From: an uncultured Chloroflexota bacterium
GTDB lineage: Bacteria > Chloroflexota > Chloroflexia > Chloroflexales > Chloroflexaceae
Length of the DNA: 64,000 bases
Reading direction: 5' to 3'
Assembly: GCA_937120965.1 (NCBI GenBank)
Contig: CAKZKA010000266.1
Location: 1-64,000, forward strand
Shown: positions 46,866-64,000 of the stretch, piece by piece
How positions within the stretch are numbered: the stretch's first letter is position 1
How the letters are laid out: every line of letters begins with the position of its first letter
Translations under genes and position numbers: made by a program
Notes under the pieces: model-generated
Told to the model about the DNA's origin: nothing
Seen by the model: only the letters and a program-made list of their open reading frames with translations
Database searches by the model: none

Positions 46866-46932
46866 GCGGGGAGCGGGCAGCCCGCGATGAGCGCGTATGA
46901 GTCGCGCCCATCACGGACGACCCGTGTGCGGT

Positions 46933-47844: not shown

Positions 47845-48063
47845 ATGCCGCAGAACCTCGGCACTTCCGACCGCGATATTCGTCTGGTATTGACAGCCGT
47901 GTTCGGGCTGATCGCCCTGTTCGCGCCCTCGGGCGGCGCCTGGCAGATCGTGCCGGCGCTGCTGGCGCTGGCGATGCTCACCACCGCCGCTGTGGGCTTT
48001 TGCCCTTTGTACGCCGTTTTTGGCATCAATACGAATAAAGAACAACACGCCATCGAGAAGTGA
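47845..48063 (+). CDS. DUF2892/YgaP-like small membrane protein
   Basis: 72 residues from ATG 47845, with AAGGAG eight bases upstream. MPQNLGTSDRDIRLVLTAVFGLIALF, two membrane helices (about 14-32 and 36-56) and the conserved GFCPLYAVFGINT after the second helix match DUF2892 (YgaP transmembrane-like). Relatives occur alone or fused to rhodanese. Function unknown; the cysteine in FCPLY is conserved in the family. Confidence 0.88.
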   Translation: MPQNLGTSDRDIRLVLTAVFGLIALFAPSGGAWQIVPALLALAMLTTAAVGFCPLYAVFGINTNKEQHAIEK

Positions 48064-48373
48064 CCCCGATGGGTACGCATAGGATGGCGTCGCGGGGACC
48101 CGCAGTCCCTCTCCGACGGGCGTAGAGGCGCGGCGGGCAGGGGGGTGGGGAAGCCCGGTTTCCCCTATGTTCGCCGCAGCCATCCATGCGGCTGCGCGGC
48201 ACAACGACGCGATGAACATAGGTTTTTCTTGGGAGGGCTTCGCCCTCCCAAACCCTCCCCGCAGGGGGCTCGTTTCTGGGAGGGCGTGGGAAGGCGCAGT
48301 TCGCTCTCGAGAATCTCCTTTCCTTTCCGTGGTTCATGGCGAAACCGGGTGCGGCTCACATCAACTCTATCGT
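48064..48373. repeat. palindromic repeat block E-A-C-B
   Basis: A half module E (GTAGAGGCGCGGCG near 48121), module A variant (GGGGAAGCCCGGTTTCCCC, about 48147-48165), module C (ATGCGGCTGCGCGGCACAAC near 48186) flanked by TGTTCG/TGAACA, and module B (GGGAGGGCTTCGCCCTCCC near 48231). No gene. Confidence 0.8.
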
Positions 48374-48661
48374 ATGTCGCAGACTTCCCTGATAACGGTG
48401 ACCATCTACCGGCGCAACTATGGCTACCGCTATACCGATCTGCCAGTGGATCGGCTCGAAACCTCCGGTCTGACCATTGACTGTAGCGCCAGTTTTACCC
48501 GCCCCGAGCACTACGATCTGCGTCCGGGCGATATTGTGCGCTGGCGGGCCGGTGATCGCTGGATTGAAGCGGTGATCAGCTCCGTCACCCGCGACCCCAC
48601 TTCGGTGCGCGCCGAGTTGTCTGGCGCGCATCTGCTGCCTCCTGACTTTTTTCTCTACTAA
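48374..48661 (+). CDS. hypothetical protein, 95 residues
   Basis: From ATG 48374 (MSQTSLITVTIYRRNYGYRYTDLP). Mostly beta in appearance: LRPGDIVRWRAGDRWIEAVISSVTRDPTSVRAELSGAHLLPPDFFLY resembles a small SH3-like or beta-barrel domain. No family is recognised and the ribosome-binding site is weak, but the body of the frame lacks the repeat-derived peptides of neighbouring frames, which favours a real gene. Confidence 0.5.
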   Translation: MSQTSLITVTIYRRNYGYRYTDLPVDRLETSGLTIDCSASFTRPEHYDLRPGDIVRWRAGDRWIEAVISSVTRDPTSVRAELSGAHLLPPDFFLY

Positions 48662-48841
48662 AGTAGGGGAAACCGGCTTTCTCCACCCACCTGCCTGCTG
48701 GGGCGCCGGGCGCCCTCAACATCGGTTGGAGGATGGGCAAACCGGGTTTCCCCACCCCCCTGCCTGGGGAAAGGATTGGGCAGGCTGCGCCTTCCCGCAA
48801 TCATTATTTTTCAGACTACGGCGAAGTCGCATAGATATCCA
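48662..48841. repeat. module A copies after the hypothetical gene
   Basis: Two module A variants (about 48667-48685 and 48737-48752) followed by a decayed module B and module C. No gene. Confidence 0.65.
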
Positions 48842-48899
48842 AATCTAAAAACAAAAATTAAAGGTTCGCGTTGTATCAATCCAAGAAGGAACGCGAACC
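48842..48899 (-). terminator. Rho-independent terminator facing the SbtAB operon
   Basis: GGTTCGCGTT (48863-48872) is exactly inverted at 48890-48899 with a 17-nt loop. On the minus strand the stem is followed by TTTAATTTTTGTTTTTAG, a strong U tract. It lies about 290 bp beyond the sbtB stop codon in the direction of transcription. Confidence 0.75.
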
Positions 48900-49184
48900 A
48901 ATCTCAAACATCTCTTTGTTTGCGCTCATGGTATACGCTTCAATGACGCATGTCAATGCAATGACTGGTCATCAACAGGTGCCGGTAGATGAGCAATTCT
49001 CAATGACGCGGCTACCCGGAGATCTCGAGGGCGGTCAGTCTGCCGCAAAGCCCGGGCCGGCAACCGCGGCGCGGAACCGGGGAGGTAACAGTTTCTTCAG
49101 CAGAAGATCTTCCGGGAGGGCGTAGAGGCGCGGTGGCGCCGCGCCTCTACGCTCAAACCCTCCCGCGGGCGGGCTATGTTCACC
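48900..49184. other. gap downstream of sbtB
   Basis: A lower-GC stretch (48900-49010) without a supported gene, then a compact module E (about 49112-49149) and module D (inverted, TATGTTCACCTCAGAGG) running into the sbtB stop codon. Confidence 0.55.
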
Positions 49185-49481
49185 TCAGAGGTACTTCTCG
49201 CCCCGGATCACTTCGGCATCTACACTGTAGACAATCACTGCGTAGTCGGCAAAATAGTGTGACGCCACGTGCGACATGATCCGCTCGGCGACCTCGGGGG
49301 AGACCAGCGTCTCGATGCGCAGGTTGGGGCCCTCCCAACTGCTGGCATGGATGCCCCGCGTCCCCTCGCCGCGGGCCATCACCACGGTGTAGCCTCTGGC
49401 GCCGAGTTGCCGGAGTTCACGCAACAGTCGCTCTTCGAGCACGGACTCGGCGACGATTGTCACCAGTTTGAGCTTCTTCAC
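49185..49481 (-). CDS. sbtB: SbtB-like PII-family regulator
   Basis: 98 residues from GTG 49481, with GGAGG eight bases upstream. Ferredoxin-like PII fold: KLVTIVAESVLEERLLRELRQLGARGYTVVMARGEGTRG, a T-loop region (HASSWEGPNLRIET) and FADYAVIVYSVDAEVIRGEKYL. It follows the sbtA gene by 62 bp on the same strand; in cyanobacteria SbtB binds adenyl nucleotides and closes SbtA. The chain ends at GEKYL without the C-terminal cysteine-containing redox loop of many cyanobacterial SbtB proteins. The TGA stop overlaps a module D repeat. Confidence 0.88.
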   Translation of the reverse strand: MKKLKLVTIVAESVLEERLLRELRQLGARGYTVVMARGEGTRGIHASSWEGPNLRIETLVSPEVAERIMSHVASHYFADYAVIVYSVDAEVIRGEKYL

Positions 49482-49543
49482 CGGGCGCCTCCTCCCTACG
49501 TTGAGAAGGCCGTGTCCTCCCCACAGCCCTCGATCCCTCCGCC

Positions 49544-50506
49544 TCAGAAGAACAGGTTGGAGAATGCGTAGTAGAGCGGAATGCCGACGGCCAGGTTGAA
49601 CGGAAAGGTGATCGCCAGCGAGGCGGTCAGGTAGTAGCTCGGGTTGGCCTGGGGCAAGGCAATACGCACGGCGGCGGGGGCCGCGATGTAGGATGCGCTC
49701 GCTGCCAGGGTGCCCAGTACCACTGCGCCACCGGGCGAGAGACCCGTGAGGCTGCCAAGCCAGATCCCGACGATGCCGGAGGCGATCGGCATCATGATAC
49801 CAAATCCCACCAGAAACATCCCCACCTTGCGCAGATCGCCCAACCGCCGCGCTGCGACCATACCCATTTCGAGCAAGAACAGAGTCAATACCCCCTTGAA
49901 GGGGTCCACAAACAACGGCGCTACCTGCTTCAAGCCCGCCTGTCCGGCGAGAAAGCCTATCACCAGACCGCCGAGGAGGAGGAGGATGCTCTTGCCGGCC
50001 AGCAACTCGCGGATCACCTCGCCCCAGTTGCCGCCCTGTCCCATCGCCACACGGGCGATCAGCAGCGCTATGATGATCGCCGGCACCTCGAGCAGGGCGA
50101 CCAGGGTGGGAGTGAAGCCCTCATAGGGCACCTTGAGCGCCTCCAGGAAGGTCTGCACGGCGGCAAAAGTCACTGCGGAAACCGAGCCATAATGCGCGGC
50201 CAGCGCTGCCGCATCGGCGACCTCGAAGCCGCCCAGACGCCGCAGAATCACGTACGCCACCACGGGAATGATCACCCCGAGCGCGAGCGTCGCCAGAGCC
50301 GGCATCAGAATAGTGGAGAAGGGCGTCTCGGAGAGGGCTGCGCCGCCTTTCAAGCCGATCGCAAACAACAGGTAAATTGATAGACCAATGTACAACTCCT
50401 CGGGAAACTTGAGATCGCTATGGACCAGTGTGGCAATACCCCCCAGCACGAACGCGAGCACCATCGGCGAGAGCAAGTTCAGTCGCACCAGGTCGAGAAT
50501 GGACAC
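49544..50506 (-). CDS. sbtA: SbtA-type sodium-dependent bicarbonate transporter
   Basis: 320 residues from GTG 50506, with AGGGGG upstream. About ten membrane helices in two inverted halves: LRLNLLSPMVLAFVLGG-type start, FPEELYIGLSIYLLFAIGLKGGAAL, AAHYGSVSAVTFAAVQTFLE, and GTLAASASYIAAPAAVRIALPQANPSYYL, the SbtA/DUF897 signatures including the substrate-site serines. It should import bicarbonate with sodium. Co-transcribed with sbtB. In this setting it would feed carboxylases such as the AccB-containing enzyme or a CO2-fixation route; that link is inference. Confidence 0.93.
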   Translation of the reverse strand: MSILDLVRLNLLSPMVLAFVLGGIATLVHSDLKFPEELYIGLSIYLLFAIGLKGGAALSETPFSTILMPALATLALGVIIPVVAYVILRRLGGFEVADAAALAAHYGSVSAVTFAAVQTFLEALKVPYEGFTPTLVALLEVPAIIIALLIARVAMGQGGNWGEVIRELLAGKSILLLLGGLVIGFLAGQAGLKQVAPLFVDPFKGVLTLFLLEMGMVAARRLGDLRKVGMFLVGFGIMMPIASGIVGIWLGSLTGLSPGGAVVLGTLAASASYIAAPAAVRIALPQANPSYYLTASLAITFPFNLAVGIPLYYAFSNLFF

Positions 50507-50776
50507 CCGGAACCCCCTTCAGGAAGACACAAAGGGCACAGAGGCGGGAATGATCCCTGACACGCTCTATGCCCTCACCAATCGAGTTTGCGCAGTACAT
50601 GGCGCAGCCCGTCGCCAAGCATATTCAGGGAAAACCCGGTCCCCCACATCCCTCCCGGTGGAGAGGGCTCGGGAAGGCGCAGCCCTCCTGGAACGAGCCT
50701 TTTACAGCTTTGTGGTATGCGGCGCAGCCCCACAAGGGCCTGACGCAAACCTGACGTTTTCGGAATGAAACAAAAT
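50507..50776. other. gap upstream of sbtA
   Basis: No supported gene; decayed repeat-like stretches (GGGAAAACCCGGTCCCCC near 50628; GCGGCGCAGCCCCAC near 50720). No convincing promoter. Confidence 0.4.
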
Positions 50777-50962
50777 CTAATCGGCCGACAGCGCCGGCTC
50801 AGACTCCTCCAACCGCGATGGGGGCATATCCCATTCATGATAGCCCGTCTCATAGGCATCAATACCAAACAGTTCGGCGGCAATATAGGCAGCAGTCTGG
50901 GGCGAGATCCGCCCGTTCTCCAATCCTTCCTCAAGCGCGGCGAGCAGTTCAAAGCGGTCCAC
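50777..50962 (-). CDS. small acidic hypothetical protein
   Basis: 61 residues from GTG 50962, with GGGGAGG eight bases upstream (strong). DRFELLAALEEGLENGRISPQTAAYIAAELFGIDAYETGYHEWDMPPSRLEESEPALSAD: two helices and a disordered acidic tail. No family is recognised. The longer frame upstream runs through non-coding sequence and is rejected. Confidence 0.55.
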   Translation of the reverse strand: MDRFELLAALEEGLENGRISPQTAAYIAAELFGIDAYETGYHEWDMPPSRLEESEPALSAD

Positions 50963-51085
50963 TGGTATCACCTCCCCAGGATCATCATTGGTGCTGGCGC
51001 GGCACGACGCCGTCACGCGCCGTCCGGTCGGTAACGGTGCGAATAATACTCGTAGCTTGCCTTTTGTGCAAGAGGAGTCCTTCCC
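50963..51085. other. short gap
   Basis: No gene or motif recognised. Confidence 0.3.
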
Positions 51086-51198
51086 GTACGTGTTCACATT
51101 TGGGGTAAGGCGTTACCCCGGGAGCGCGGGCGTCCCGCCCGCAAGGGCCTGGATGCGGGCAAGATGCCGGCGCTCCCAGGAGAAGTGTGAACACGTAC
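51086..51198. mobile_element. uninterrupted 113-bp GTACGTGTTCACA element
   Basis: Ends GTACGTGTTCACA (51086-51098) and TGTGAACACGTAC (51186-51198) are perfect 13-bp inverted repeats. The core contains ACCCCGGGAGCGCGGGCGTC and GATGCGGGCAAGATGCCGGC, itself an inverted repeat. The sister copy at 24673-24862 shares the core but is split by another element. Confidence 0.75.
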
Positions 51199-51461
51199 CC
51201 TTCCCGGCGCGGGTAGTGTGGGAAATCCGCTTTTTCTTATGTTCTGTCAGGCGTCCATGCGGCTGCGCCGCATCCAGACAAGATGGAAATGGTCCTGGCA
51301 GGGCTGCGCCCTCCCAGACCCTCCCCACGGGCAGAGGCGTGGGGGGAAACCCGGTTTCCCCATACCCCAACCGCTGTTGGGGTCACCTGGCGCCCCGCTA
51401 GGCAGGCGCGTGGGGAAGCCCGGCTCCCCCGTGTTTCAGGAACGCCTCTGCTTGCTAACCT
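51199..51461. repeat. palindromic repeat block C-B-A-A
   Basis: Module C (ATGCGGCTGCGCCGCATC near 51257), module B variant (about 51298-51318), module A (about 51342-51361) and a module A variant (GGGGAAGCCCGGCTCCCCC near 51412). No gene. Confidence 0.75.
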
Positions 51462-51505
51462 GGTACCTTTTGACTATTGAGGGTCGCAGGTTGCGCCCGT
51501 ATAAT
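51462..51505 (+). promoter_or_regulatory. candidate promoter of the surface locus (copy 1)
   Basis: GGTACCTTTTGACTATTGAG (51462-51481) leads into a -35 TTGAGG (51477-51482), a 17-nt spacer and a perfect TATAAT (51500-51505). The same 20-mer and architecture recur at 54916-54960, and the conservation argues for a functional promoter. Confidence 0.65.
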
Positions 51506-52081
51506 TCAGTGCAGAATACGCATTAGTAAGGAAGACCCTACCGGTCGCCGTATCGAGTGAGTACCCCGTGCTCCCATCGAGACGGCGGCAAAGCCAGGCG
51601 CCACTATCGAAATCCACGGTAGCAGGCGCTCCGAATGGTCGCTATTGCGGTCGATATGATCCGTTTCCAGGCGACGCAGGGCGTCGCCGGTTTAGTGAAC
51701 CGCTTCGTCGCATCCGTCCTACCTGACCCATCCCACCAGTTCGTCCCTCCCCCCATCTTCCCGGACGCGCGGTGAAGCCTGCACGCACGCAGCGCCAGTT
51801 GCCGTGAAGGGCCCTCGCTCTTCCGGGCCGTTCCAGCCTGCATCCCATCCCCCAACAGCGGCGCTACCTGCCAGTTTTCAACTGCCAGGCCGGTTGTACC
51901 TGTCGCCATCCGCCCGGTAGAGAAGTGCCAGGGCGCCATTGCGCCTTTTCGCCACGGCACGACGCAGGGAGGATTCTGAAGGGCTTCACCCGCCCGGATC
52001 CTCTCACTCCCGTGGGCAGGGGTTGGGGAAACGGGGTTTCCCCACAGTCACGTTAGCAGTCAGACGGACGGAGGAATCCCG
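51506..52081 (+). other. long leader of tadG1 with a structured RNA candidate
   Basis: 576 nt with no supported gene. At 51546-51587, CGCCGT pairs with ACGGCG. At 51597-51630, GGCGCC pairs with GGCGCT around an inner hairpin CTATCG/CGGTAG (51604-51622). GGCAAAGCC (51587-51595) and GGTAGC...CCGAATGG (51618-51638) loosely recall the 3' half of c-di-GMP-I aptamers, but the 5' GGGCAAACC half is not evident, so no class is assigned. A module A hairpin (about 52026-52044) lies just before the start of tadG1. Confidence 0.35.
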
Positions 52082-54733
52082 ATGGGGAACCCACGCAGCA
52101 GACGCCGCGCGGCACGCTCCCGCACCCCGGGCCAGAGCCTGCCCCTGATCGGCCTGATGATCGCCGTCATTGTTGGCATGGTTGGCCTGTCGGTTGATGT
52201 GGGCAATACGTTCTCCGAAGAGCGGCGCGCCGTTACCGCCGCCAACAGTGCTGCCCTGGCGGGGATGAACACCTATATCGGTCGCTCCCAGAGCACCACC
52301 AACAGGATAGTTTACACCTCGATCGTCAATTCGCTCAACGCCCACGGCGTGCAGGTGACGGCCCCTGGCGCCGAACCGCAACCTGATGAGCTGACCCTCG
52401 AGGCCCGCTACCTCGACGCCCAGGGCCGCCCGCTCAATGATGGTATCATCACCGATGACACTAATCCGGTTCCGAATAACGTCGCCTTCATTCAGGTGGA
52501 CATACGGGGCCGCGTTGATACCGCTTTCGCCCGTATCGTCGGACGCAACGACCTGCCGATCAATGCGCTGGCCTATGCCGGCACCTGCACCAGTAGTTCG
52601 GGCTACTACCCCATCACCGTAAACACCCGTATGATTGACGGCAATCGCTTCGTCCGCAGCAACGATCCCACTCTCAACTGGCGCGAAGCGCCCTACGACA
52701 GCCCCGACATCTCCGGGCGCTTCACGGCTATGCGCGTGGTGATAGGCGACGAGAGCGCCCGCAACTTCGGCTGGCTACGCTGGCGCAACGATGTCCCTGG
52801 CGCGCGCAGCGCCATTACCCTGGCCCGCTCGTTGAGCGGGGAGGGCAACCTCGGTGAAGGCTTCGAGGAGGCCCCCTGGCCCAGTTCGCAGAACCGGCCC
52901 GACGGGGTCTACCCTCCCGAACGGGGCGCGCTGACTCCCGGCGATTGGGTCTGGGGCAGCACTGCCTGGCCGAACTCCAGTGATGTGCAGGCGGCCCTTG
53001 ATGAGCACATTCGCCTGGGCACGCGCATGATCCTGCCCATCCATCGCGAAGCCTTTCGCGACGGTGATAACTCGCGCTTCCTTATCGTGCGCTTTGGCCT
53101 CTTTGTGATCCTCGGTCAGGGGCAAACAGGAAACAACCGCTGGCTGGACCTGATGTTCCTCGGCGATCCGCGCCCGCAACAGCGCGCCTGTCTGTATGCC
53201 CCCACGGCAAATAACGACGGTCAGGTGGGCCTGGCCGGCTCGGTCGCGTTCCTGCCCGAATACCGCGTGCAGCCTGAACGCCGCCCGCCGGTTCAGTATG
53301 CGGTCATTCTTGACGTTTCGGGTTCGATGAGCGCCAATTTTGCCGGCCAGTGCGATGTATTCGACGCCAACGCCCCCAATGCTAACTACTACCGAAACCA
53401 GAATGGTCAGGGGCATATCAATGGCACGCAGCGCGGCTGGTGGCAGTGCGCCGAGGTGCCGGCCGATCCTGACTGGCCAGTTGCGCGCGCCGAAGTGCTG
53501 GGCACCGGTGAGATCTACTGGTGGAGCAACGAACGCGACCGCCGCATTTATGTGGCCAAGAAGGCCCTCGAACGCCTGATTGAAGAAACCAACATGCCCG
53601 GCAACCCCGACTACGACCCCACCCGTCCGTCAGATCAGATGGCCCTGGTCTGGTTCAATCAGGAAGTACCGTCAGGCTTTGTTGGTGACTTCAACGGCCA
53701 GGCTTTCTCGAATAACCCGAGCCAGCTCATCGACGCTGTTACGCGACAGGCAACGACCCACCGCACCCGAAATACTTACCTCTCCCAGGGTGGCACCAAC
53801 AGCGCCGCTGCCCTCTACCGCGCCTCTCTGGCGCTGGATCGCGCCCCGCGCACGGTGACCCATACCGATGGCGAAGTCTGGCAGTACAAGCGGGCGGTCA
53901 TCTTCATCACCGATGGTGTTGCGAACTTTCTGTTCAGCCCAAATGCGCCGAATTTGAGCGTCGGCTGGAGCAGCCAGAATACCTATCCGCGCGACCACGT
54001 CTGCCATACCTGGCTCGCGCCTGAGATGGCCAACTGCCAGACCACCGGCTTCGGCGGCCGGACGGTCGCCTCGGGCACTATCCCTGCCGGATTGGATCGG
54101 CCCATCACGCAGGCGGTCAATGTGAGCGAACAGATGAAGTCGCGCCAGTACGAGATCTTCGTGGTTGCGCTGTCGAACATCCCTGACACCGGTCTGCGCG
54201 ACGGTATTGCCTCGTTCCCCAGCTACTTCTTCTCAGCCCGGGAGTTGCAGCGCAATGCTGATGGCAGCACCAATGTTGACGCGATTATGGAGGCGATCAA
54301 TAACATCGTCGAGAGCGGTCTCTGTGAGCGTCGCGCCGATCCCCGCACCAGTTCCATCCCCCCGGCGGGCTTCCGGCCCGTTGCCGGCCTGACCTATCCC
54401 AATGTGGGCGAGGTCATTCTCACCGACCAGAATACCGGCACCCAGTACCGCACCCCCATCCGCGCCGATGCCAGCCGCGGCGGCGAACTGAGCTATCGCT
54501 TCGACCGCCTGCCCGCCGGTTCCTACCGCCTTGAAGCCTACGTGTTCTACCGCCATCCGCTCGATCCGCCCGGCGTTGGCCCGCGTCGCTATAGTCTGAT
54601 CGAGCAGAACAATGAGACCCGGGCCGATATTGTGGTCAATGTGACCGTGGATACCAGCGTGAGCGGCTTCTCGCGCGTGATCCGCCAGGATCTACAACTT
54701 CGCCTCGCTGGCGATGTCTGCGCGACGAACTGA
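52082..54733 (+). CDS. TadG-like surface protein with von Willebrand A domain (copy 1)
   Basis: 883 residues with GGAGG upstream of ATG 52082. A basic N-terminus then one membrane helix (about 18-42: GQSLPLIGLMIAVIVGMVGLSVDVGN), the TadE/TadG-type pilus-assembly motif, followed by SEERRAVTAANSAALAGM. The exported part carries a vWA domain (about 404-720) with MIDAS DVSGS (D411, S413, S415), GGTNSAAALYRASL and IFITDGVANF. A large Asn/Trp-rich insertion (about 425-500) splits it. A C-terminal beta-sandwich (about 755-860, VILTDQNTG...YRFDRLPAGSYRLEAYVF) resembles CnaB/carboxypeptidase-regulatory domains. Probably an anchored adhesin or pilus-associated protein. Closely similar to the gene at 56762. 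Confidence 0.88.
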   Translation: MGNPRSRRRAARSRTPGQSLPLIGLMIAVIVGMVGLSVDVGNTFSEERRAVTAANSAALAGMNTYIGRSQSTTNRIVYTSIVNSLNAHGVQVTAPGAEPQPDELTLEARYLDAQGRPLNDGIITDDTNPVPNNVAFIQVDIRGRVDTAFARIVGRNDLPINALAYAGTCTSSSGYYPITVNTRMIDGNRFVRSNDPTLNWREAPYDSPDISGRFTAMRVVIGDESARNFGWLRWRNDVPGARSAITLARSLSGEGNLGEGFEEAPWPSSQNRPDGVYPPERGALTPGDWVWGSTAWPNSSDVQAALDEHIRLGTRMILPIHREAFRDGDNSRFLIVRFGLFVILGQGQTGNNRWLDLMFLGDPRPQQRACLYAPTANNDGQVGLAGSVAFLPEYRVQPERRPPVQYAVILDVSGSMSANFAGQCDVFDANAPNANYYRNQNGQGHINGTQRGWWQCAEVPADPDWPVARAEVLGTGEIYWWSNERDRRIYVAKKALERLIEETNMPGNPDYDPTRPSDQMALVWFNQEVPSGFVGDFNGQAFSNNPSQLIDAVTRQATTHRTRNTYLSQGGTNSAAALYRASLALDRAPRTVTHTDGEVWQYKRAVIFITDGVANFLFSPNAPNLSVGWSSQNTYPRDHVCHTWLAPEMANCQTTGFGGRTVASGTIPAGLDRPITQAVNVSEQMKSRQYEIFVVALSNIPDTGLRDGIASFPSYFFSARELQRNADGSTNVDAIMEAINNIVESGLCERRADPRTSSIPPAGFRPVAGLTYPNVGEVILTDQNTGTQYRTPIRADASRGGELSYRFDRLPAGSYRLEAYVFYRHPLDPPGVGPRRYSLIEQNNETRADIVVNVTVDTSVSGFSRVIRQDLQLRLAGDVCATN

Positions 54734-54915
54734 GGTTGCGGGTACAGTTTGATCCAGCTCAGGGAGGGTGGGGAAACCTGGTTTCCCCACCCTCCTGCCG
54801 GTAATGAACATCATTGCTCCCGGAAGGGCTGCGCCTGCCCAAACCCTCCCGGTGCGGAGGGCTTGCGCCCCGCCACGAAAGGCAAAACCCGATTTTCCCC
54901 ATTTTCGTCTCACTC
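54734..54915. repeat. module A-B block after tadG1
   Basis: Module A (GGGGAAACCTGGTTTCCCC at about 54771-54789) and a module B-like CCGGAAGGGCTGCGCCTGCCC stretch. The tadG1 stop begins TGAGGTTG, a module D relic. Confidence 0.7.
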
Positions 54916-54960
54916 GGTACCTTTTGACTATTGAGCCTTCAAAAGCGCCTGACTTATAAT
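54916..54960 (+). promoter_or_regulatory. candidate promoter of the TadE gene (copy 2)
   Basis: GGTACCTTTTGACTATTGAG (54916-54935), -35 TTGAGC (54931-54936), 18-nt spacer, TATAAT (54955-54960). The ATG at 55001 is 40 bp downstream, so here the leader is short, unlike copy 1. Confidence 0.7.
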
Positions 54961-55000
54961 CGGCCTACGATCGCGTATCGCGGAGGAGCGTGAGGAGCGT

Positions 55001-55582
55001 ATGGATCGCCGAAACACTGGTCAATCAATCGTCGAAATGGCGCTGATCCTGCCATTCATGCTCCTGGTGCTCTTTGGCATCATGGAGTTCGGGTATATCA
55101 TCTGGGCCTATTCAACCGTCTCTCAAGCCGCCCGTAACGGGGCTGAGGCCGCCGCCCAGGTTCCCCCCTACGAGTCCTGGCTGGCCTATCGCACCAACCC
55201 GCCCGCGGACTCGGATTACCCCGGCTTCCGCGGCGATGCCTGCGTCAATACGATCCTGGCAGCAATAGAGAGCGATACGACCCTCTTTTCGGGCGATATC
55301 AACCGGAATCGCAGGGTTGTGGACTTTGTGACCATCCGCTACCCCAACGGCGGCAATACCCGCAACCTGCGCGACCGGGGGCCGATCGAGGTGGAGATCA
55401 GCTACCCCGTCACCGGGCTGACGCCGCTCTTCCAGTTGCTGCGCATCGGCGGCAGTGAAGGCACCATCACCCTGCGGGTTATCCAGCGGCGCTCAATCGA
55501 GAACCTGGGAATGGACCCTACCCGCCCCGCCGGGGTGGCCTGCGCCCGCAATATGGCCGAATGGCGTGAGTTGAACCAGTAG
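55001..55582 (+). CDS. TadE-like pseudopilin (first)
   Basis: 193 residues, with GGAGGAGCG repeats (GAGGAG about eight bases before ATG) as ribosome-binding site. The N-terminus NTGQSIVEMALILPFMLLVLFGIMEFGYIIW is the TadE signature: Gln/Glu then a single helix. The exported part has STVSQAARNGAEAAAQVPP and a beta-rich region ending in cysteine-containing AGVACARNMAEW. TadE proteins are minor pseudopilins of Flp/Tad pili, processed by the prepilin peptidase TadV. The next TadE-like gene begins 12 bp downstream. Confidence 0.88.
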   Translation: MDRRNTGQSIVEMALILPFMLLVLFGIMEFGYIIWAYSTVSQAARNGAEAAAQVPPYESWLAYRTNPPADSDYPGFRGDACVNTILAAIESDTTLFSGDINRNRRVVDFVTIRYPNGGNTRNLRDRGPIEVEISYPVTGLTPLFQLLRIGGSEGTITLRVIQRRSIENLGMDPTRPAGVACARNMAEWRELNQ

Positions 55583-55594
55583 GAGCATTGATCC

Positions 55595-56215
55595 ATGTTG
55601 CGCCGACTTCGTAAGCTACGTCGCCAGTCTCGCGCCAGGGGTCAGGCGCTGGTGGAACTGGTGCTCGCCAGCACGCTGCTCTTCTTCCTCCTCGCCGCTG
55701 CGGTTGATCTGGGCCTGATCTTTTTTACCCTCCAGGGCCTGCGCGCGGCCGCCCAGGAGGGCGCCAGCTTCGGCAGCTACCCGGTGCAGGTGATGCAGAA
55801 CGGCCAGTTGCAACGGGTGGATCTCAACTATGCCGAGATCGTCCGCCGCGTGCGTGGCGCCGGCGGCCCGCAGTCCAGCGGCTTCGCCAATCTGCGCGAC
55901 CTGGACAACAACGGCGTCTGGGACGAGTTCGAAACCGGCCGCGCCGTCCATACCGACTGGACGAACCCGAATGCCTATATTCAGATCGAGTTGCGCGGAG
56001 GTAGCAATCCACAGAATCTGAACCTCGCATGCCCCACCAATGTGCGCGGCGTGGGCATGCAGGCCGGTGGGCAAAATTGCTGGATCAGGGTCACGGTTCG
56101 CACCGATTACCAGTTCATCTTTCCCCTGGCGCCCGCCTTCGGCAATAGTGTGCGGCTCCAGGCAGTGTCCGTGATGCCGATCCGAAGTTCGTATGCCAAT
56201 ACTCCTGTAAATTAA
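55595..56215 (+). CDS. TadE-like pseudopilin (second)
   Basis: 206 residues; ATG 55595 lies 12 bp after the previous stop, with AGGAG nine bases upstream inside the intergenic space. A basic N-terminus (MLRRLRKLRRQSRARGQ) is followed by a helix (about 20-48: ALVELVLASTLLFFLLAAAVDLGLIFF), then GLRAAAQEGASFGSYPV and a beta-rich exported part with two cysteines (CPTNVRG...NCWIRVTVRTDY). Same role class as its neighbour; the pair may form a heterodimer as TadE/TadF do. Confidence 0.85.
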   Translation: MLRRLRKLRRQSRARGQALVELVLASTLLFFLLAAAVDLGLIFFTLQGLRAAAQEGASFGSYPVQVMQNGQLQRVDLNYAEIVRRVRGAGGPQSSGFANLRDLDNNGVWDEFETGRAVHTDWTNPNAYIQIELRGGSNPQNLNLACPTNVRGVGMQAGGQNCWIRVTVRTDYQFIFPLAPAFGNSVRLQAVSVMPIRSSYANTPVN

Positions 56216-56326
56216 TGAGTGGCGCATCCGGCACGTCAGGCTACACACCCGGAGGTGAGCAGATGGGGAAACCGGGTTTCCCCACCCCCTGCCCAGGGGG
56301 TTGGCAAGCCCTCCCTGCCGGGTTCA
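56216..56326. repeat. module A after the pseudopilin pair
   Basis: GGGGAAACCGGGTTTCCCC at about 56264-56282, followed by GC-rich filler. No gene. Confidence 0.75.
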
Positions 56327-56518
56327 GGGGCGGACAGAACGTATGAGCGCCGACGGGCGTGATGGCGTGGGGATGCGCTGGGTGGCTCCCGCCCCCTCCC
56401 CCTCTCCAGCTTCGCTGGAGAGCCTGCGCTGAGCTTGTCGAAGCGGGGAGACCAGAGCCGCGCGCGGGGACGTTCTAATGCGGTATACGCCACGTTGGCT
56501 CGGATGTTCTGTCCGCCC
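56327..56518. mobile_element. 192-bp GGGGCGGACAG element with nested insert
   Basis: Ends GGGGCGGACAGAACGT (56327-56342) and GATGTTCTGTCCGCCC (56503-56518) are near-perfect inverted repeats. Compared with the 120-bp copy at 19588-19707 it has about 70 extra bases, including CCAGCTTCGCTGGAGAGCCT and GAGCTTGTCGAAG, shared with 18256-18345. Confidence 0.75.
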
Positions 56519-56761
56519 TTAAACCCTACCGGGAGGGTTTGGGAGGGCGCAGTCCTCACGGGAGATCTATGACCATCGGGGAAACCGGGTTCCCCCACAA
56601 CCTTGCCCGGCGGGGTGTCAGGCGACCCCAACAGTCGGGTGGTTCGTTTCGCGGCTACAAAGTTGTTGTGTACGGAGAAGAAAAGATTCTGGTAGGCCCC
56701 GTGCGCTCCGATTCGTCCGCGCACTCTCGCCAGCAATCCAGTACCAAACGGAGGGATCTCG
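56519..56761. other. upstream region of tadG2
   Basis: Module B (GGGAGGGTTTGGGAGGGCGC near 56530) and a module A variant (about 56577-56596), then sequence without repeats up to the start. The last 20 bases (CGGAGGGATCTCG before ATG) mirror those before tadG1. No promoter like copies 1 and 2 was found here. Confidence 0.5.
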
Positions 56762-59377
56762 ATGGGGAACACACGTAGCAGACGTTTTATCGCGCAACCC
56801 CGCACCCGCGGTCAGAGTTTGCCGCTGATTGGCTTGATGATCGCAGTTATCGTCGGCATGGTCGGTTTGTCGGTTGATGTTGGCAATACCTTCTCCGAGG
56901 AACGGCGCGCGGTAACCGCCGCCAATAGCGCCGCCCTGGCGGGGATGAATACCTACATTACACGCTCGCAGAGCACTACTAACCGCATCGTTTATCAGTC
57001 GATTGTCAATTCACTTAGCGCTCACGGCGTGCAGGTAACGGCCCCCGGCGCTGAACCGCAGCGCGACGAGCTTACATTGCAGGCGATGTACCTCGACGCC
57101 CAGGGCCGCCCGATCAGGAATGGCTCGCCATTCATCACCGACGATACCAATCCGGTTCCCAATAACGTCGCTTTCATTCAGGTGGACCTGCGGGGCCGCG
57201 TGGACACAGCCTTCGCCCGCGTGGTTGGCCGCGACGACCTGCCAATCAACGCCCTGGCCCACGCCGGCACCTGCGCCAGCGGCGCCGGAGTCTATCCGAT
57301 CACGATCAGCAGCCAGGTGATTGATGGCAATCGCTTCATCAATCCCAACAACCCCGATCAGAACTGGCGTGAGGTCACTTACGACAGCCCCGATCTCTCC
57401 GGGCGCTTCACCGCGATGCGCGTGATCGTGAGTGGCTCGACGACGCCGGGCAACTTTAGCTGGCTGCGCTGGCGCGACAGCATCCCCGGCGCCACCAGCG
57501 AGCCGCGCCTGGCTGCCAGCCTTACCGGCGAAGGCAATCTGAGCGAGGGCTTCGAAGAGGCGCCCTGGCCCACCCCCCAGGATCGCCCCGCGACCTACCC
57601 TGAGCAACCCGGCACGCTCAACGTGGGCGACTGGGTCTGGGGCGCCACTGGTTATATGAACTCAAACGATGTGCGAGATGCGCTTGATGAGCATATCCGC
57701 GTCGGCACGCGCATGGTGCTGCCCATTCACAGCAATGCCGTTTTGCAGGGCGACAACTCGCGCTTCCACATCGTGCGCCTGGGCCTCTTCGTCCTGGTGG
57801 GTAAGGGCCAGACGCGCAATGACAAGTGGCTCGACTTTATATTCCTGGGCGACGCGCGCCCGCAGCAGCGCGCCTGTCTCTACACCGGTGTGATTGACCC
57901 GAACACCGAGGGCGTGGTCGAACTGGTCGGTTCGGTGTCAATCTGGCCCGAATACCAGTACCGGCCCCAGTCGCGCCGACCCATCCAGTACGTGGTGGTG
58001 CTCGACGTCTCCGGCTCGATGAGCGCGGACTTCGATGGCCGCTGTGACCGCACCACGGTGAGCAACCCGCCCGCAGCCGGTCGCCAGCGCGGCTGGTGGC
58101 AGTGCGCCGAGGCCCCGCCCGGCGCGCCACGCATCGAGGTTACGGGTACCGGCCCGAACTACTGGTGGAGCGTCGTGCAGGAGCGGCGCATTACCGTGGC
58201 CAAGAATGCCCTCGAGGCCCTGGTACGCTCGACCAATATGCCGGGTAACGCCGAGTACGACCCCTCCCGTCCGACTGACCGGATGGCCCTGGTCTGGTAC
58301 GACCATGAGGTGCCGTCGAGCTTCGTCAGTAACTTCGGCTCGAACCAGAACTTCTCGAATAACACCAACGCTCTGATCACCGCTATCCGCAATGCGGGCA
58401 TGTACAACAACGACCCCTATCGAACCGAAGGCGGTACCAACGGCGCCGCCGGCCTGTACCGCGCATCGCTGGTCCTCAACAACGCCCCGCGCACGGTCAC
58501 CCATAACGGCCAGACCTGGGAGTACAAGCGGGCGGTGATCTTCGTCACCGACGGTGTGTCGAATCAATTGCTCAATCGCAACGCCAACAACCTGCGCTAC
58601 GGGACAAGCGATGAGACCACCTATCCCAGCGGTCACGTCTGCCGCACTCCGCTGGTGATCGAAATGGCGAACTGCCAGACCACCGAGTTCGGCGGGCGGA
58701 CGATCGAGAGTGGCAGCATCCCCGCCGGCCTTGACCGGCCCATTACCCAGGCCGTGCAGGTGAGCCGCAATGATCTGCAGGCCAACCGGATCGAGGTCTA
58801 TGCGGTCGCCCTGTCGAATATTCCCGATACGGGCCTGCGCGACGGCATTGCCTCGTTCCCCAGCTACTTCTTCTCGGCGCGGGAACTGCAGCGCGACTCT
58901 AGCGGGCGCACCAATGTGGACTCGATTATGCTGGCGATTAACACTCAGATCGAAACCGGCCTGTGCGAACCGCGCTCTGACGCTGCATGGACTAATGTCG
59001 TCCCTGCGTCGAACTTCCAGGCCGTGGGGAGCCTCCAGTACCCCAACGTGGGCGAGGTTATCCTCACCGACCAGAGCACCGGCACGACGTACCGCGCTCC
59101 CATCCGCGCCGATGCTAGCCGCGGCGGCGCCTTGAGCTACCGCTTCGACCGCCTGCCGGCAGGCTCGTACCGGCTCCAACCCTATCTGTTCTATCGCCAT
59201 CCGCTCGATCCGCCCAATGTTGGCCCGCGGCGCTACAGCCTGATCTACCAGAATGAGGAGACCGTCTCCGACATCGTGATCAACGTCGCGCCGAATACCA
59301 CTGTGGGCAGTTTCACGCAGACAATGCGTCAGGATCTGCAACTCCGCCTCTTTGGCGACGTCTGCGCGACGAACTGA
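56762..59377 (+). CDS. TadG-like surface protein with von Willebrand A domain (copy 2)
   Basis: 871 residues, GGAGGG upstream of ATG 56762. Architecture identical to the gene at 52082: the N-terminal helix segment RGQSLPLIGLMIAVIVGM and SEERRAVTAANSAALAGM are the same residue for residue; vWA MIDAS at D415 (DVSGSMSADF), GGTNGAAGLYRASL and IFVTDGVSNQ; the same C-terminal beta-sandwich. Divergence is concentrated in the insertion within vWA (shorter here) and in the ligand-facing parts. A recent-to-moderate tandem duplication flanking the TadE pair, suggesting two related but distinct surface ligands or heteromeric assembly. Confidence 0.88.
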   Translation: MGNTRSRRFIAQPRTRGQSLPLIGLMIAVIVGMVGLSVDVGNTFSEERRAVTAANSAALAGMNTYITRSQSTTNRIVYQSIVNSLSAHGVQVTAPGAEPQRDELTLQAMYLDAQGRPIRNGSPFITDDTNPVPNNVAFIQVDLRGRVDTAFARVVGRDDLPINALAHAGTCASGAGVYPITISSQVIDGNRFINPNNPDQNWREVTYDSPDLSGRFTAMRVIVSGSTTPGNFSWLRWRDSIPGATSEPRLAASLTGEGNLSEGFEEAPWPTPQDRPATYPEQPGTLNVGDWVWGATGYMNSNDVRDALDEHIRVGTRMVLPIHSNAVLQGDNSRFHIVRLGLFVLVGKGQTRNDKWLDFIFLGDARPQQRACLYTGVIDPNTEGVVELVGSVSIWPEYQYRPQSRRPIQYVVVLDVSGSMSADFDGRCDRTTVSNPPAAGRQRGWWQCAEAPPGAPRIEVTGTGPNYWWSVVQERRITVAKNALEALVRSTNMPGNAEYDPSRPTDRMALVWYDHEVPSSFVSNFGSNQNFSNNTNALITAIRNAGMYNNDPYRTEGGTNGAAGLYRASLVLNNAPRTVTHNGQTWEYKRAVIFVTDGVSNQLLNRNANNLRYGTSDETTYPSGHVCRTPLVIEMANCQTTEFGGRTIESGSIPAGLDRPITQAVQVSRNDLQANRIEVYAVALSNIPDTGLRDGIASFPSYFFSARELQRDSSGRTNVDSIMLAINTQIETGLCEPRSDAAWTNVVPASNFQAVGSLQYPNVGEVILTDQSTGTTYRAPIRADASRGGALSYRFDRLPAGSYRLQPYLFYRHPLDPPNVGPRRYSLIYQNEETVSDIVINVAPNTTVGSFTQTMRQDLQLRLFGDVCATN

Positions 59378-59757
59378 GGTCGAGGCGCGGCATCTTTCGT
59401 CCCAACGCGGGAACGCCAGGCGCTCCCGCACGCGATCTGACAGGAGGGTCTGGGAGGGTCAGCTCTCCCAGGCCCGCCCGACACGTTTGAAACGTGGGGA
59501 ACCCGGGGTTCCCCACACTCCTGCGCCGTCCCCCAGGGCGGGGCATAGGGAAGCCCGGTTGCCCCACACCCTGACCGCTGGTAGCAACCATCGGGTATGA
59601 TAGGCCCGGCGCCGGCGGTTGCACCCGAACAACGCCCGGTCGCCTGAGCGACTGGGCGCGAGCGTTCAACGCAGTCCGCTCCCGGTAAGGCTGCAAGGAT
59701 CGGACAGACCCGCGCTCTGGCCTTACGGGGACGGAGTACTAACCCAGGAGGTAGCCC
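59378..59757. repeat. module A-type repeats and leader of the kelch-like gene
   Basis: Module B trace (about 59441-59480), module A variants (GGGGAACCCGGGGTTCCCC, about 59496-59514, and a decayed copy near 59548). A possible -10 TATGAT (59596-59601) with CTGACC (59571-59576) is 19 nt apart and weak. No gene. Confidence 0.55.
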
Positions 59758-59760
59758 GTG

Positions 59761-62487
59761 ATGGCACAACACCGCGCGCGGCGACATATTGCGCTTCTGC
59801 ATCTCATGGTCATCGTCGCGGCGCTTATGGCCCTGGCCCCCGCTCACCACGCCAGCGCCCAGCAGGGTATCTTTCAGGACCTCGACAACGGGCAGCAAGA
59901 GTTTGCCCGCGGCTCGTTCTACCGCACCTCGCTCGGACCTGACCGCAATACCAACGATACCCACGACCAAGCCGGCGCCGTGCAACTGGCCCCCATCGGC
60001 TTCCTCAAACCCTGGGAGAGCGCAGGCGTGGGTCTGCCCGAGGCGCTCTCAGGCGCTGGCGCGGCGGTGATCGGCAAGCGGCTCTTCGTGGCCGGCGGCA
60101 CCCGCGCCTCGGGTTCGACCCCTCCCAATAATCCGTATGTCTACTGGGCCAACTTCAACCAGGTCACCGGCGGCGCCACGCCCCACGGCATCACCGATGG
60201 GCGCTTTTTCGGCAACGAGAACTGGCTGCGCAGCGCCCTGCCCCCGGTGCAGATGATCACCCCGCCCGAGGCATGCCAGGGCGCCCAAAACCCCGGCCCG
60301 GCGCGCACCCGCGCGGCGGTGACGGCTATGGCCACCGGCCCCGAGACGGGCTACCTGTTTGTGATCGGCGGCAGTGTGCTGGCCTCGGCCAGTGGCTGCC
60401 ACGTGGAGGATCTATCCACCCCGGTGATCCAGGTCGGCGTGGTTAATGGCGACACGCTCACCTGGCGCGACCCTCTGTACCTGCCCAGCCCGACGCCGGA
60501 GCTCACCGAGATCCCCAATGTCACCATCAGCGGCCCCGGCTTCGCTACCCGGCAGCTAGGCCTGGAGAGCGCCGCGGCGGTGCTGGTGCGCGTGGCGCCC
60601 GACCGGGCCTTCCTCTACGTGATCGGGGGCATAGCGGCCTACCAGGGATTCGTGGGCGCTTCCTCTTCGACGCGCAACCTGTACTCGCGGGCCGTGCTCT
60701 ACACCCAGGTCAACGCCGACGGCAGCTTCAGCGCCCCGCCGGTTGGCGGCGCCCTGCCAGTGCAGGGCGTCTGGGCGCGAGCGGCGGACCTGCCGCTGCC
60801 GACGACGGCCCTGGGTCTCTTCGAGCACACGGCCGCGGCGGCGACCACGATTGTGGGCAACGAGCGGCGGCACGCCATCTTCGTGGCCGGCGGGCGTTTA
60901 AGCAACAACCCCAACGACATCAATGAGTTTGTCTTCCGCGGTGCGGTCAACCCTGCCAACGGCGTGATCACCTGGAGCGACCGCCCGAACAGCAACAACG
61001 AGCAGGTGAGTCTGGAGGGCCAGCGGCGCTACAGCCTGGCGAGCGTGGCCTACAACAACCGGCTCTACGCAATCGGCGGCCGCGGGGCCACGGGCGTCTC
61101 GGCACGGGTGCAGACCGCGGTCCACGACGATCAGATGGACCTCCAGCGCGTTCCGGGGGCTACCCAGTACTTCATCGGGAACGCCGGGCCGAACGTGCTC
61201 CCGGTGACCGACGTAACCGACGGGCGCTACAGTATGAGCGCAGTACTGATGGACGCCCTGCCGCCGCCCGACAACCCCAGCGGCAACGACTCTCTCGGCT
61301 CGGCCTGGGTGTTCGTGGCGGGCGGCAACGACCGCAACGGCCTTCCGACCAGCTCGCTCTTCCGCGGGCGCCTGGGCGGCCTCAACGAAGTCACCCTGCA
61401 GAGCCGCGCCAACGAAGGCTGGTTCTATTCCCACGTCTTCCCGGTGAGTATCCGCGCCAGCGAGCGCGACAATGACGCGCGGGTGCTCTCCGTCCGCTGG
61501 TACGCCGACGTGAGCCGTCAGAACAATCCCAACGCCGACCTGGTGCTGCAATTCCGGGTTGTTAATGGCGCAAACCCGAACTGCCCGGACGAGTCGGTGT
61601 TCCCCGAAAGCGCCCCATGGACCACGCTGGACGGCGATCTCGACTCCGGCTTTTCGAGCCGGGCCAGCGGCGAGAACGTGTTCTCGCTGCGCGACAGCAA
61701 TATCGTCGCCACCTGTCTGCAATACCGGGCACGCTTCCTGCAGAACGGGTTGAGCGGCGATCGCGCGGCCCAGCCAGGGGCGGGCGGCGCTGGCGACACG
61801 CCGAAGCTGTTCCGCGTGGTCATTGAGAAGATCCTGCCCACGGGCGCCCCCGACATCCGGCTGAAGGACTTCACGGCCACGGTAGGCACGAGCGGTGGTC
61901 TGACAACCTTCAACGTGCAGATCCAGAACCTGAGCACCCAGGGTATCGAAAGCACCGCCCCTGCTTCCACCGGCCCGGCGGACAATACGGGCTTCTGGGT
62001 AGGGCTGTGCGTGCGGCGTACCGACATCGGGCAACCGCCGCCGACCCTCAACGCCAGCAACATTCCAGGGGTGCCAATGCCCGATGTAACCTTCCCCGAC
62101 TGCGTGGTGGCGATGTACCAGGTGCTCAAGTACCAGATGACGCCAGGCGCGCGGATGGATCTGCGAACAGGCTCAGATCCGACCGGCAACCCGCAACGCT
62201 GGACACGGGTGCGCGACGAGCAGGGCCAGTTGATCCAGAGCGGCGGCGTGGTGGGCGTGCCGATTGACGACGTGCGCGCGTTGTTCCGCCAGCCAGGCAA
62301 CTACGCTGTAGCGGTGTTGATTGACCCGTGGAACTATGTCAACGAAGGCACAGCCGGGGAGGCCAACAACCGCGGCGAGGAGCAGAACGCGCAGCCGACA
62401 CCCAACCAGCCCTGGGTGATCAACTTCACGGTCACCAACCCGACCGCGCCGCCTAACGAGTTGTACCTGCCGCTGGTGCGACGCTAG
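59761..62487 (+). CDS. large secreted kelch-like repeat protein
   Basis: 908 residues from ATG 59761 (AGGAGG nine bases upstream; GTG 59758 also possible). Signal peptide about 1-36 ending ASA. Six kelch-like blades (about 100-530) marked by RLFVAGG, YLFVIGG, FLYVIGG, AIFVAGG, RLYAIGG and WVFVAGG, predicting a beta-propeller. C-terminal part (about 700-900): a CARDB-like beta domain (TTFNVQIQNLSTQGIE) ending NELYLPLVRR. Lies between tadG2 and cpaB in the same direction, so it belongs to the surface locus, perhaps as an appendage-tip or matrix component. Exact function unknown. Confidence 0.82.
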   Translation: MAQHRARRHIALLHLMVIVAALMALAPAHHASAQQGIFQDLDNGQQEFARGSFYRTSLGPDRNTNDTHDQAGAVQLAPIGFLKPWESAGVGLPEALSGAGAAVIGKRLFVAGGTRASGSTPPNNPYVYWANFNQVTGGATPHGITDGRFFGNENWLRSALPPVQMITPPEACQGAQNPGPARTRAAVTAMATGPETGYLFVIGGSVLASASGCHVEDLSTPVIQVGVVNGDTLTWRDPLYLPSPTPELTEIPNVTISGPGFATRQLGLESAAAVLVRVAPDRAFLYVIGGIAAYQGFVGASSSTRNLYSRAVLYTQVNADGSFSAPPVGGALPVQGVWARAADLPLPTTALGLFEHTAAAATTIVGNERRHAIFVAGGRLSNNPNDINEFVFRGAVNPANGVITWSDRPNSNNEQVSLEGQRRYSLASVAYNNRLYAIGGRGATGVSARVQTAVHDDQMDLQRVPGATQYFIGNAGPNVLPVTDVTDGRYSMSAVLMDALPPPDNPSGNDSLGSAWVFVAGGNDRNGLPTSSLFRGRLGGLNEVTLQSRANEGWFYSHVFPVSIRASERDNDARVLSVRWYADVSRQNNPNADLVLQFRVVNGANPNCPDESVFPESAPWTTLDGDLDSGFSSRASGENVFSLRDSNIVATCLQYRARFLQNGLSGDRAAQPGAGGAGDTPKLFRVVIEKILPTGAPDIRLKDFTATVGTSGGLTTFNVQIQNLSTQGIESTAPASTGPADNTGFWVGLCVRRTDIGQPPPTLNASNIPGVPMPDVTFPDCVVAMYQVLKYQMTPGARMDLRTGSDPTGNPQRWTRVRDEQGQLIQSGGVVGVPIDDVRALFRQPGNYAVAVLIDPWNYVNEGTAGEANNRGEEQNAQPTPNQPWVINFTVTNPTAPPNELYLPLVRR

Positions 62488-62792
62488 CGCCGGCAGATGC
62501 TCCGGGAGGAGGGTATGAGGAAACCCGGCTTTCCCATACCCTCCCGGCGGCGCGGGGATCGTCTGAGACCCCCCGGCGGGGCAGGGGCATGGGGAAACCT
62601 GGTTTCCTCATCTGTTCACCTCAGGCCCCACTCGCGAGGCGCACAACGCCAGAATGAAAATACGTATTCTTGGGAGGGCTGCGCCCTCCCAAACCCTCCC
62701 GGTGAGGAGGGCTTGCCGCCCCTACAGGCAGAGGGATGGGGAAACCTGGTTTCCCCTATGTTCATGTTAGAACGCATAGTTCATTTCACAGT
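62488..62792. repeat. palindromic repeat block A-A-C-B-A before cpaB
   Basis: Module A at about 62519-62537, 62593-62611 and 62738-62756, a module C relative near 62635 and module B (about 62672-62692). No gene. Confidence 0.8.
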
Positions 62793-62798
62793 TATAAT
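62793..62798 (+). promoter_or_regulatory. candidate -10 box for cpaB
   Basis: A perfect TATAAT 49 bp before the cpaB ATG. The nearest -35-like string, TTAGAA (62767-62772), is 20 nt away, so the promoter is tentative. Confidence 0.35.
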
Positions 62799-62846
62799 GC
62801 ACTCTATGTTGTGCGGCGAAGCCCCTGATAGGAAGGATGTTCTTGT

Positions 62847-63881
62847 ATGCGGCGTGGTGGCATTATCATTCTGCTTATCGGTCTGATCCTGCTCGTCGGC
62901 GCTGCCGCCCTGTTCTTTCTCCTCCAGCAGCCCGGCGGAGGCGGACTGATCGGGGGGGCGCAACCAACCCCGGCCCTCCCCACCGAGGCGCCGGAGGTCG
63001 AGATCGTGCGCGCGCGGGTAGACATCCCCGCCAATACGCTGATCGCCGACACCACCTTGCTCGATGTGATCACGATCCCCCAGACGGAGTTCGATCCCGA
63101 TCAGAACTTCTCGCGGACCGGCGAGATCGTGGGCAAGCTCACCACGCGCCCATTCCGGGCTAACGAGTTCATCGTCAAAGCAGGCTTGACCGAACCGGGC
63201 CTGTCCCAGCAGATTCCCACCGCCGAGCCTGACCGGGCGCGCGACAAAGCCTATCCGTTCATCGTCAACAACCTCTCGGGCGTGGCCGACCGGATCGTGC
63301 CCGGCGACTTCGTTGACGTGGTGGCGACCTTCAGCGTGCCCCGGCGCGAGTCGTACCCGACCGGGCGGCGGATTGAAGAGCAGGGTGGCGCGCAGGTGCC
63401 GGTGACCGAACGCTCGCTGAACGACCTCACCCTCAACAGTACCAAGACGATTGTTCAGCGGGCGCAGGTGCTGCAGATCGTGCGCCCGCCCGTGGCTACC
63501 GACGCAACGCCGGAGCCAGGAGCGGGGCCTGAATCGAGCGGAAGCCTGCCCCAGGTGGACGCCTCGGGTCAGCCGATCGACCCGGCGAGTGGACAGGCTC
63601 CCGGCACGATCACCGCTGGCGCCTGGACCTTGCTGCTGGCGCTGAACGATCAGGAAGTGGAATTGATGGAGTTCGCCCTGGCCTCGAACGCGCGCATGGT
63701 GCTGGTGCTGCGCGGGGCAGGCGACGAAGCCTTCGAGCCGACCATCGGCGCGACGCTGGATCTCTTGATCTCCGAGTTCGGGCTGCCGCTGCCCTACGCC
63801 TTGCCGCCGCAGGTGGTGAGCGAAGATACGGCCTTCACGCCCGAGCCGACGCGCACCCCGGCGCCTACCCGCGTGCCGTGA
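62847..63881 (+). CDS. cpaB: CpaB/RcpC-type Flp pilus assembly protein
   Basis: 344 residues, with AGGAAGG about ten bases before ATG 62847. A membrane anchor (about 5-26) and short Pro-rich linker are followed by an SAF domain (about 50-115: VEIVRARVDIPANTLIADTTLLDVITI...LTTRPFRANEFIV) and the RcpC-like domain (RAYPFIVNN-type region, VADRIVPGDFVDVVATF, LNDQEVELMEFALASNARMVLVLRGAG). The tail is Pro/Thr-rich. CpaB sits in the periplasm or envelope and positions the Tad/Flp secretin or its functional equivalent. It confirms that the preceding vWA and TadE genes are part of a Tad-like locus that continues past the right edge. Confidence 0.92.
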   Translation: MRRGGIIILLIGLILLVGAAALFFLLQQPGGGGLIGGAQPTPALPTEAPEVEIVRARVDIPANTLIADTTLLDVITIPQTEFDPDQNFSRTGEIVGKLTTRPFRANEFIVKAGLTEPGLSQQIPTAEPDRARDKAYPFIVNNLSGVADRIVPGDFVDVVATFSVPRRESYPTGRRIEEQGGAQVPVTERSLNDLTLNSTKTIVQRAQVLQIVRPPVATDATPEPGAGPESSGSLPQVDASGQPIDPASGQAPGTITAGAWTLLLALNDQEVELMEFALASNARMVLVLRGAGDEAFEPTIGATLDLLISEFGLPLPYALPPQVVSEDTAFTPEPTRTPAPTRVP

Positions 63882-64000
63882 GTTCAGGTAAGCCTGCACC
63901 GCGAAGGTGGGGAGACTCAGGGACGGCAGCCCCCTCAGTTGCGCCCGGGGGCGCGAGGAAACCCGGTTTCCTCACATGCTCCCGGCGGGGGAGGGCTGTG
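63882..64000. repeat. right-edge repeat block
   Basis: A module A variant (GAGGAAACCCGGTTTCCTC near 63955-63973) and the start of a module B. The next Tad genes would lie beyond the window. Confidence 0.6.

Follow-up and report, generated by a model that had tools for sequence, protein, structure and literature searches.

What kind of surface appendage is built by a Tad-like locus that combines two vWA minor pilins and two TadE proteins with a large Kelch-repeat protein and CpaB? The question is raised by the last genes of the window analysed here, which comprises bases 1-64000 of a 70,970-base contig (C266) in a 5.18 Mb Chloroflexales genome of 307 contigs. A first-pass annotation had read these genes in the order vWA-TadG1, TadE, TadE, vWA-TadG2, kelch and CpaB, and all six open reading frames were found where it placed them, with the families confirmed by Pfam and NCBIfam. 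We consider it likely, for this assignment and for the explanation developed below as a whole, that these genes are the minor-pilin (tip) operon, with CpaB, of a complete Tad (type IVc) pilus.

All six genes lie on the plus strand. TadG1 (52082..54733; Pfam Tad 36.3 bits, VWA_2 27.2 bits) carries a class III (prepilin-type) signal, a Tad helix and a vWA domain with a metal ion-dependent adhesion site (MIDAS). It is followed by a first TadE minor pilin with glutamate at position +5 (Glu+5; 55001..55582; Pfam TadE 59.4 bits) and by a second, also with Glu+5, in a TadF-like position (55595..56215; Pfam TadE 32.9 bits); these two are the sole TadE genes of the genome. TadG2 (56762..59377; Pfam Tad 36.2, VWA_2 30.9 and VWA 28.3 bits), the ancestral vWA minor pilin, lacks Glu+5 and has an intact MIDAS. 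The secreted Kelch-repeat (beta-propeller) protein (59758..62487; Pfam Kelch_1) has a signal peptide and a C-terminal LYLPLVRR tail, and the last gene encodes the membrane-anchored conduit protein CpaB/RcpC (62847..63881). The CpaB match is significant though slightly under both curated cut-offs (RcpC 25.9 bits, Pfam cut-off 28.8; NCBIfam pilus_cpaB TIGR03177 65.8 bits, cut-off 71, E 3.4e-18), its SAF match is also slightly under the Pfam cut-off, and the gene has its usual place ahead of tadZ.

The Tad system around the window

The first-pass annotation had remarked that no TadA ATPase, TadB/C, Flp pilin or peptidase appears, and had made its reading depend on further Tad genes downstream. 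The apparent absence was an effect of where the window ends, and a true absence of motor genes is rejected: the contig extends a further 6970 bases, and reading rightwards gave tadZ, tadA, tadB and tadC directly after CpaB (64244-69356). TadZ/CpaE (C266:64244-65509) joins a response-regulator receiver to a ParA-like ATPase, the TadA/CpaF ATPase (C266:65684-67066) matches PF00437 at 225 bits and the TadA-family model TIGR03819 at 349.7 bits (cut-off 373), and the platform proteins TadB (C266:67202-68191) and TadC (C266:68439-69356) are both T2SSF proteins; a DUF192 protein and SurE come next. The Flp major pilin is encoded by two tandem genes on contig C122 with an identical 52-residue product bearing an EGQGLVEYAL signal (31.1 bits each, cut-off 32.2), and the genome's single prepilin peptidase, above cut-off for PF01478 and PF06750, lies on contig C111, unlinked to the tip locus. 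The Tad (type IVc) pilus system of this Chloroflexales genome is thus complete, and the window carries its tip part. A genome-wide PF00263 search for the outer-membrane secretin RcpA/CpaC gave no match, while the same search was positive in 6 of 14 control genomes. The secretin is a feature of diderm Tad systems only, and the cell envelope here differs from that of diderm Tad hosts.

No separate type IVa pilus system was found among the PF00437 matches of the genome, the remaining ones being TadA-like genes on contigs C236 and C118. On C236 (L006 6590-9538), a second TadA-like ATPase stands right behind an AAA ATPase without other Tad genes close by; the AAA gene recurs in genome G005, with a weak copy of the promoter element described below ahead of its operon. 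C118 (L007 405-7413) carries two TadA-like ATPases in a divergent cluster, together with a ParA-like protein and two hydrophobic proteins, possibly TadB/TadC-like.

The earlier suggestion of an adhesive appendage is well supported, given that the locus belongs to a Tad pilus and encodes vWA minor pilins. Its description as departing from the textbook Tad cluster is right only in part: the motor genes adjoin the window, and the arrangement is ordinary for its order, since across Chloroflexales unlinked flp, a TadE pair and Kelch after tadG are the normal state. The doubling of adhesin-like subunits likewise stands for the TadG pair, in part of one genus, and not for the TadE pair, which is normal here. 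We regard as highly improbable a specialised gliding or adhesive appendage that is not a Tad pilus and uses only parts of Tad. The doubled TadG, the large extra protein and the position of the motor genes outside the window speak for it, but its strong form is refuted by the motor genes that follow at once, Flp and the peptidase both exist, and a promoter element is common to the tip operon and flp.

The Tad genes of the order, including tadEEG, and their proposed gliding role are already published: in R. castenholzii, C. aggregans and Ca. Viridilinea, Gaisin et al. 2020 (PMC7332563) identified rcpC-tadZABC, tadEEG and flp; they describe long pili near septa in Chloroflexales with these genes and suggest that Tad pili power gliding. 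The available text makes no mention of a vWA/MIDAS head, a TadG duplication or a shared promoter element, all of which are described here. These observations also bear on whether the apparatus is mainly a protein secretion device with the Kelch protein as its cargo, which would suit the type II-like machinery, the genetic link to a secreted protein and the lack of a secretin match in the genome. We judge this improbable, as the Kelch protein has a signal peptide of its own, two Flp pilins are present with the shared element, and long pili are recorded for Chloroflexales bearing these genes (PMC7332563).

TadG as a candidate tip adhesin

Returning to the pilus, the sequences of the minor pilins suggest which of them would stand at its tip. 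At position +5 from the predicted cleavage site, all 25 TadG sequences have Leu, Ile or Phe and all 43 TadE sequences have Glu. In type IV filaments it is generally the minor pilin at the very tip that lacks Glu5. The MIDAS columns D415, S419, T559 and D597 are invariant in the 25 TadG sequences and S417 is nearly so, giving TadG the full pattern of a vWA minor pilin, with a prepilin signal, a pilin helix and a vWA domain with DxSxS, T and D. When a TadG profile was compared with the PDB, the best match was the vWA pilus adhesin PilB of S. sanguinis (7B7P, E 1.8e-4); a PDB search with the single TadG2 sequence gave no match. The missing Glu+5 and the conserved MIDAS would fit a tip adhesin. 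We infer that TadE, TadE and TadG are exported and processed by the prepilin peptidase, and that their complex would start and then cap an Flp filament driven by TadA/B/C, with the vWA domain of TadG, whose metal site is intact in the sequence, serving as an adhesive or force-sensing head.

Several known systems offer partial likenesses. In Myxococcus Tad/Kil pili (PMC12075869), TadE/F/G-like minor pilins form the tip, a large TadG-like subunit bears a modular C-terminal head, and there are several interchangeable tips; here, in contrast, the head is a vWA domain, a separate Kelch protein is always next door and TadG alone is duplicated. Caulobacter CpaL (PMC12607857) likewise joins a Tad minor pilin to a vWA domain that has a MIDAS, and it is proposed as a tip mechanosensor together with CpaJ and CpaK; unlike here, the available text describes no Kelch partner, and the likeness is drawn from published descriptions. 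The placement at Tad pilus tips is largely by modelling, both for TadE/F/G complexes (PMC12075869) and for CpaL (PMC12607857). S. sanguinis PilB is a bimodular pilin with a vWA adhesin head as well, but it is a type IVa pilin of a Firmicute and its similarity to the TadG profile is limited to the vWA region.

The two TadG copies are 69% identical and both retain the MIDAS residues. Two further genomes of the genus (G002 and G003) carry the pair too, and an assembly artefact is therefore rejected as its source. A maximum-likelihood tree places the duplication within the genus, later than the divergence of G001 (support 100/99), with a stem of 0.31 for TadG1 vs 0.051 for TadG2, which makes TadG1 the faster-changing copy. 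In this genome the first 180 residues of the copies are 84-90% identical and the next several hundred mostly 53-70%, and N-terminal identities between the copies in G003 are 80, 63 and 75%; the high N-terminal identity could come from gene conversion or from constraint on the pilin part. This tandem duplication is limited to part of one genus and is the sole special feature of the genes of the locus compared with the order. TadG1, a duplicated, faster-evolving copy with its own promoter element, would be an alternative head, probably an exchangeable tip.

A proposed Kelch partner of TadG

Kelch_1 was matched in 17/19 members of the Kelch protein family, whose profile also matches solved Kelch propellers in the PDB, and the PilY1 propeller family PF05567 had no match among the 19 members. 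A PHROG search with TadG1 and the Kelch protein found no match. Read gene by gene, 23/24 Chloroflexales loci have the order TadE-TadE-TadG-Kelch. In 62/63 genomes with both proteins placed, Kelch is found downstream of TadG and shares its contig and strand; the exception is G064, in which the pair is split between contigs. Among 81 genomes of the order, 64 have TadG and Kelch, 14 have neither, 2 have TadG only and 1 has Kelch only, so that presence and absence are concordant in 78/81; 12 of the 14 genomes without both also lack a TadE match. Across the order, TadG and Kelch are lost together. In several lineages the cassette is detached from cpaB-tadZABC and still includes Kelch (L048-L051, L053, L062, L063), and in genome G071 the TadE-TadG-Kelch part is duplicated as one unit (L058). 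Two genomes (G030 and G046) have a second, more ordinary Tad locus, in which TadG is short (380-420 residues) and Kelch is absent.

Since Kelch accompanies TadG everywhere, its most likely role is to dock on TadG at the pilus tip or to serve as its surface partner, after secretion by the signal peptide predicted from its sequence. A functional parallel is PilY1/PilC of type IVa pili (PMC13190605), a tip adhesin that unites a vWA domain and a beta-propeller and is encoded with minor pilins. Linkage to minor pilins is shared here (62/63 genomes); unlike PilY1, the two modules are on two adjacent genes, a minor pilin carries the vWA domain and the propeller belongs to the Kelch type. Together, vWA-TadG and Kelch resemble a PilY1 adhesin split in two, yet they are not PilY1. 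That Kelch is docked on TadG or is its surface partner, and that the two chains jointly do the job of PilY1, is a proposal that we hold with about even confidence.

The C-terminal tail of the Kelch protein is pertinent to a different explanation. Most members end in [YFLN][LV]P[LIV]xxR; among the frames of at least 150 residues in 20 loci, the 15 with this ending are all Kelch, and genome-wide the pattern occurs six times, five of them ending surface-like proteins, with 0 occurrences in the reversed control. In a related form, [YF][LVIM]P[LVI][VI]xR followed by a stop, the tail was seen on Kelch (62464-62487) and on a few surface-type proteins (L077, L078, L080, L081), and it is possibly a Chloroflexales C-terminal sorting or anchoring signal. 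The Kelch protein might be an independent surface or sheath protein that is only co-transcribed with the pilus and binds, for example, polysaccharide in the envelope or between filaments. Its own signal peptide is in keeping with this, and so is the finding that [YF]LPLVxR ends further surface-type proteins encoded in this genome, a pattern more suggestive of general anchoring than of a pilus address. The strict next-gene tie to TadG, the joint loss and the joint duplication in G071 argue against independence, and the tie holds even where the cpaB-tadZABC link is broken; we consider the independent role a real but rather unlikely prospect.

The word 'Kelch' is absent from the text of PMC7332563, and in the open-access PMC literature searched no paper was found pairing 'Tad pili' with 'kelch'. 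On that basis, neither the Kelch propeller partner nor the TadG duplication within the genus nor the promoter element seems to have been described before in the open-access literature.

A promoter element shared by the tip operon and flp

Upstream of both tadG1 and tadE1 lies an element with the consensus GTACCTTTTGACTATTG-N20/21-TATAAT. As read from the intergenic sequence of the plus strand, GGTACCTTTTGACTATTGAG with its TATAAT spans 51462..51505 (TATAAT at 51500-51505) upstream of tadG1 and 54916..54960 (TATAAT at 54955-54960) upstream of tadE1, and a search for GGTACCTTTTGACTATTGAG with up to 3 mismatches returned just these two sites in the 5.18 Mb genome. In 32 genomes, the 17-base core (up to 2 mismatches) was found at 36 sites, 29 just upstream of tadE, tadG or flp (28 assigned by position and one, in G071, separately) and 7 elsewhere; the reversed core gave 7 sites in the same search, which is the chance level. 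In the 29 aligned sites, a TATAAT-like hexamer follows at a constant spacing of 20 or 21. In other families the element at tadE is more degenerate, often with a visible 8-base direct repeat (GGACTATC GGACTATT in G049).

A matrix built from the tadE and tadG1 sites only found a site scoring at least 15, with the same gap, upstream of flp in 26/34 genomes, mostly 84-105 bases ahead of the start codon. Clear failures were three genomes of family f2, G005 and G063, and the sites were weak in G049 and G055 and in the C12 copy tested from G071. Random control windows for this search came from Tad loci, which inflated their quantiles; 420 kb of background strand sequence is the cleaner comparison and held one site only of at least 15, ahead of tadE of another order. 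The 72/77 figure of the matrix scan is biased by the locus collection, and specificity was taken from the 32-genome core search instead. A possible copy of the element was seen ahead of tadE in G083, a genome of another order (L068 9800-9900), hinting at a regulator older than the order.

At the element sites, TTG lies 17/18 bases ahead of the -10 box. As the -10 box and TTG resemble a housekeeping promoter, the conserved sequence farther upstream probably serves as an activator site. Through the shared element, the tip genes and the unlinked flp genes would be switched on together. Between the element and tadG1, a leader (51506-52081; 500-600 bases) shows partial conservation across four genomes of the genus; an Rfam search of 46000-64000, which includes it, gave no match. 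Elsewhere in the window, a dispersed palindrome resembling repetitive extragenic palindromic elements, GGGGAAACCNGGTTTCCCC, has 27 matches (up to 2 mismatches) vs 0 expected in shuffles, at positions including 129-147, 38768-38786, 54770-54788, 56265-56283 and 62738-62756.

A few observations weigh against a TadG-Kelch tip under common control. The G044 locus has TadG and no Kelch was found in it, with a second CpaB-like gene in its place. In G085, from another order, the TadG ahead of a shorter Kelch is itself short and has no visible vWA MIDAS, indicating that Kelch is not strictly dependent on the vWA head. AlphaFold models were unusable, with a predicted local distance difference test score (pLDDT) of 28 for Kelch (2 sequences) and 27 for TadG2 (4 sequences), and the proposed tip location and TadG-Kelch contact draw on sequence and gene order. 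No regulator was identified for the promoter element. With these points in mind, we advance a broader proposal only tentatively, as a joint claim that is doubtful in its entirety: the two-protein tip of a vWA minor pilin and a docked Kelch would be a separately evolved, split counterpart of PilY1, a dedicated regulator would co-activate tip and pilin genes through the element, and the pilus would drive the gliding of the order.

Finally, the gliding of filamentous Chloroflexales is unexplained, and Tad pili are the published candidate. This analysis names the likely tip proteins of such a pilus and a nearly invariable propeller partner, and the promoter element ties the unlinked pilin genes to the tip operon. 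The tip proteins, the Kelch protein and the element are concrete targets for knock-outs, regulator pull-downs and expression tests.

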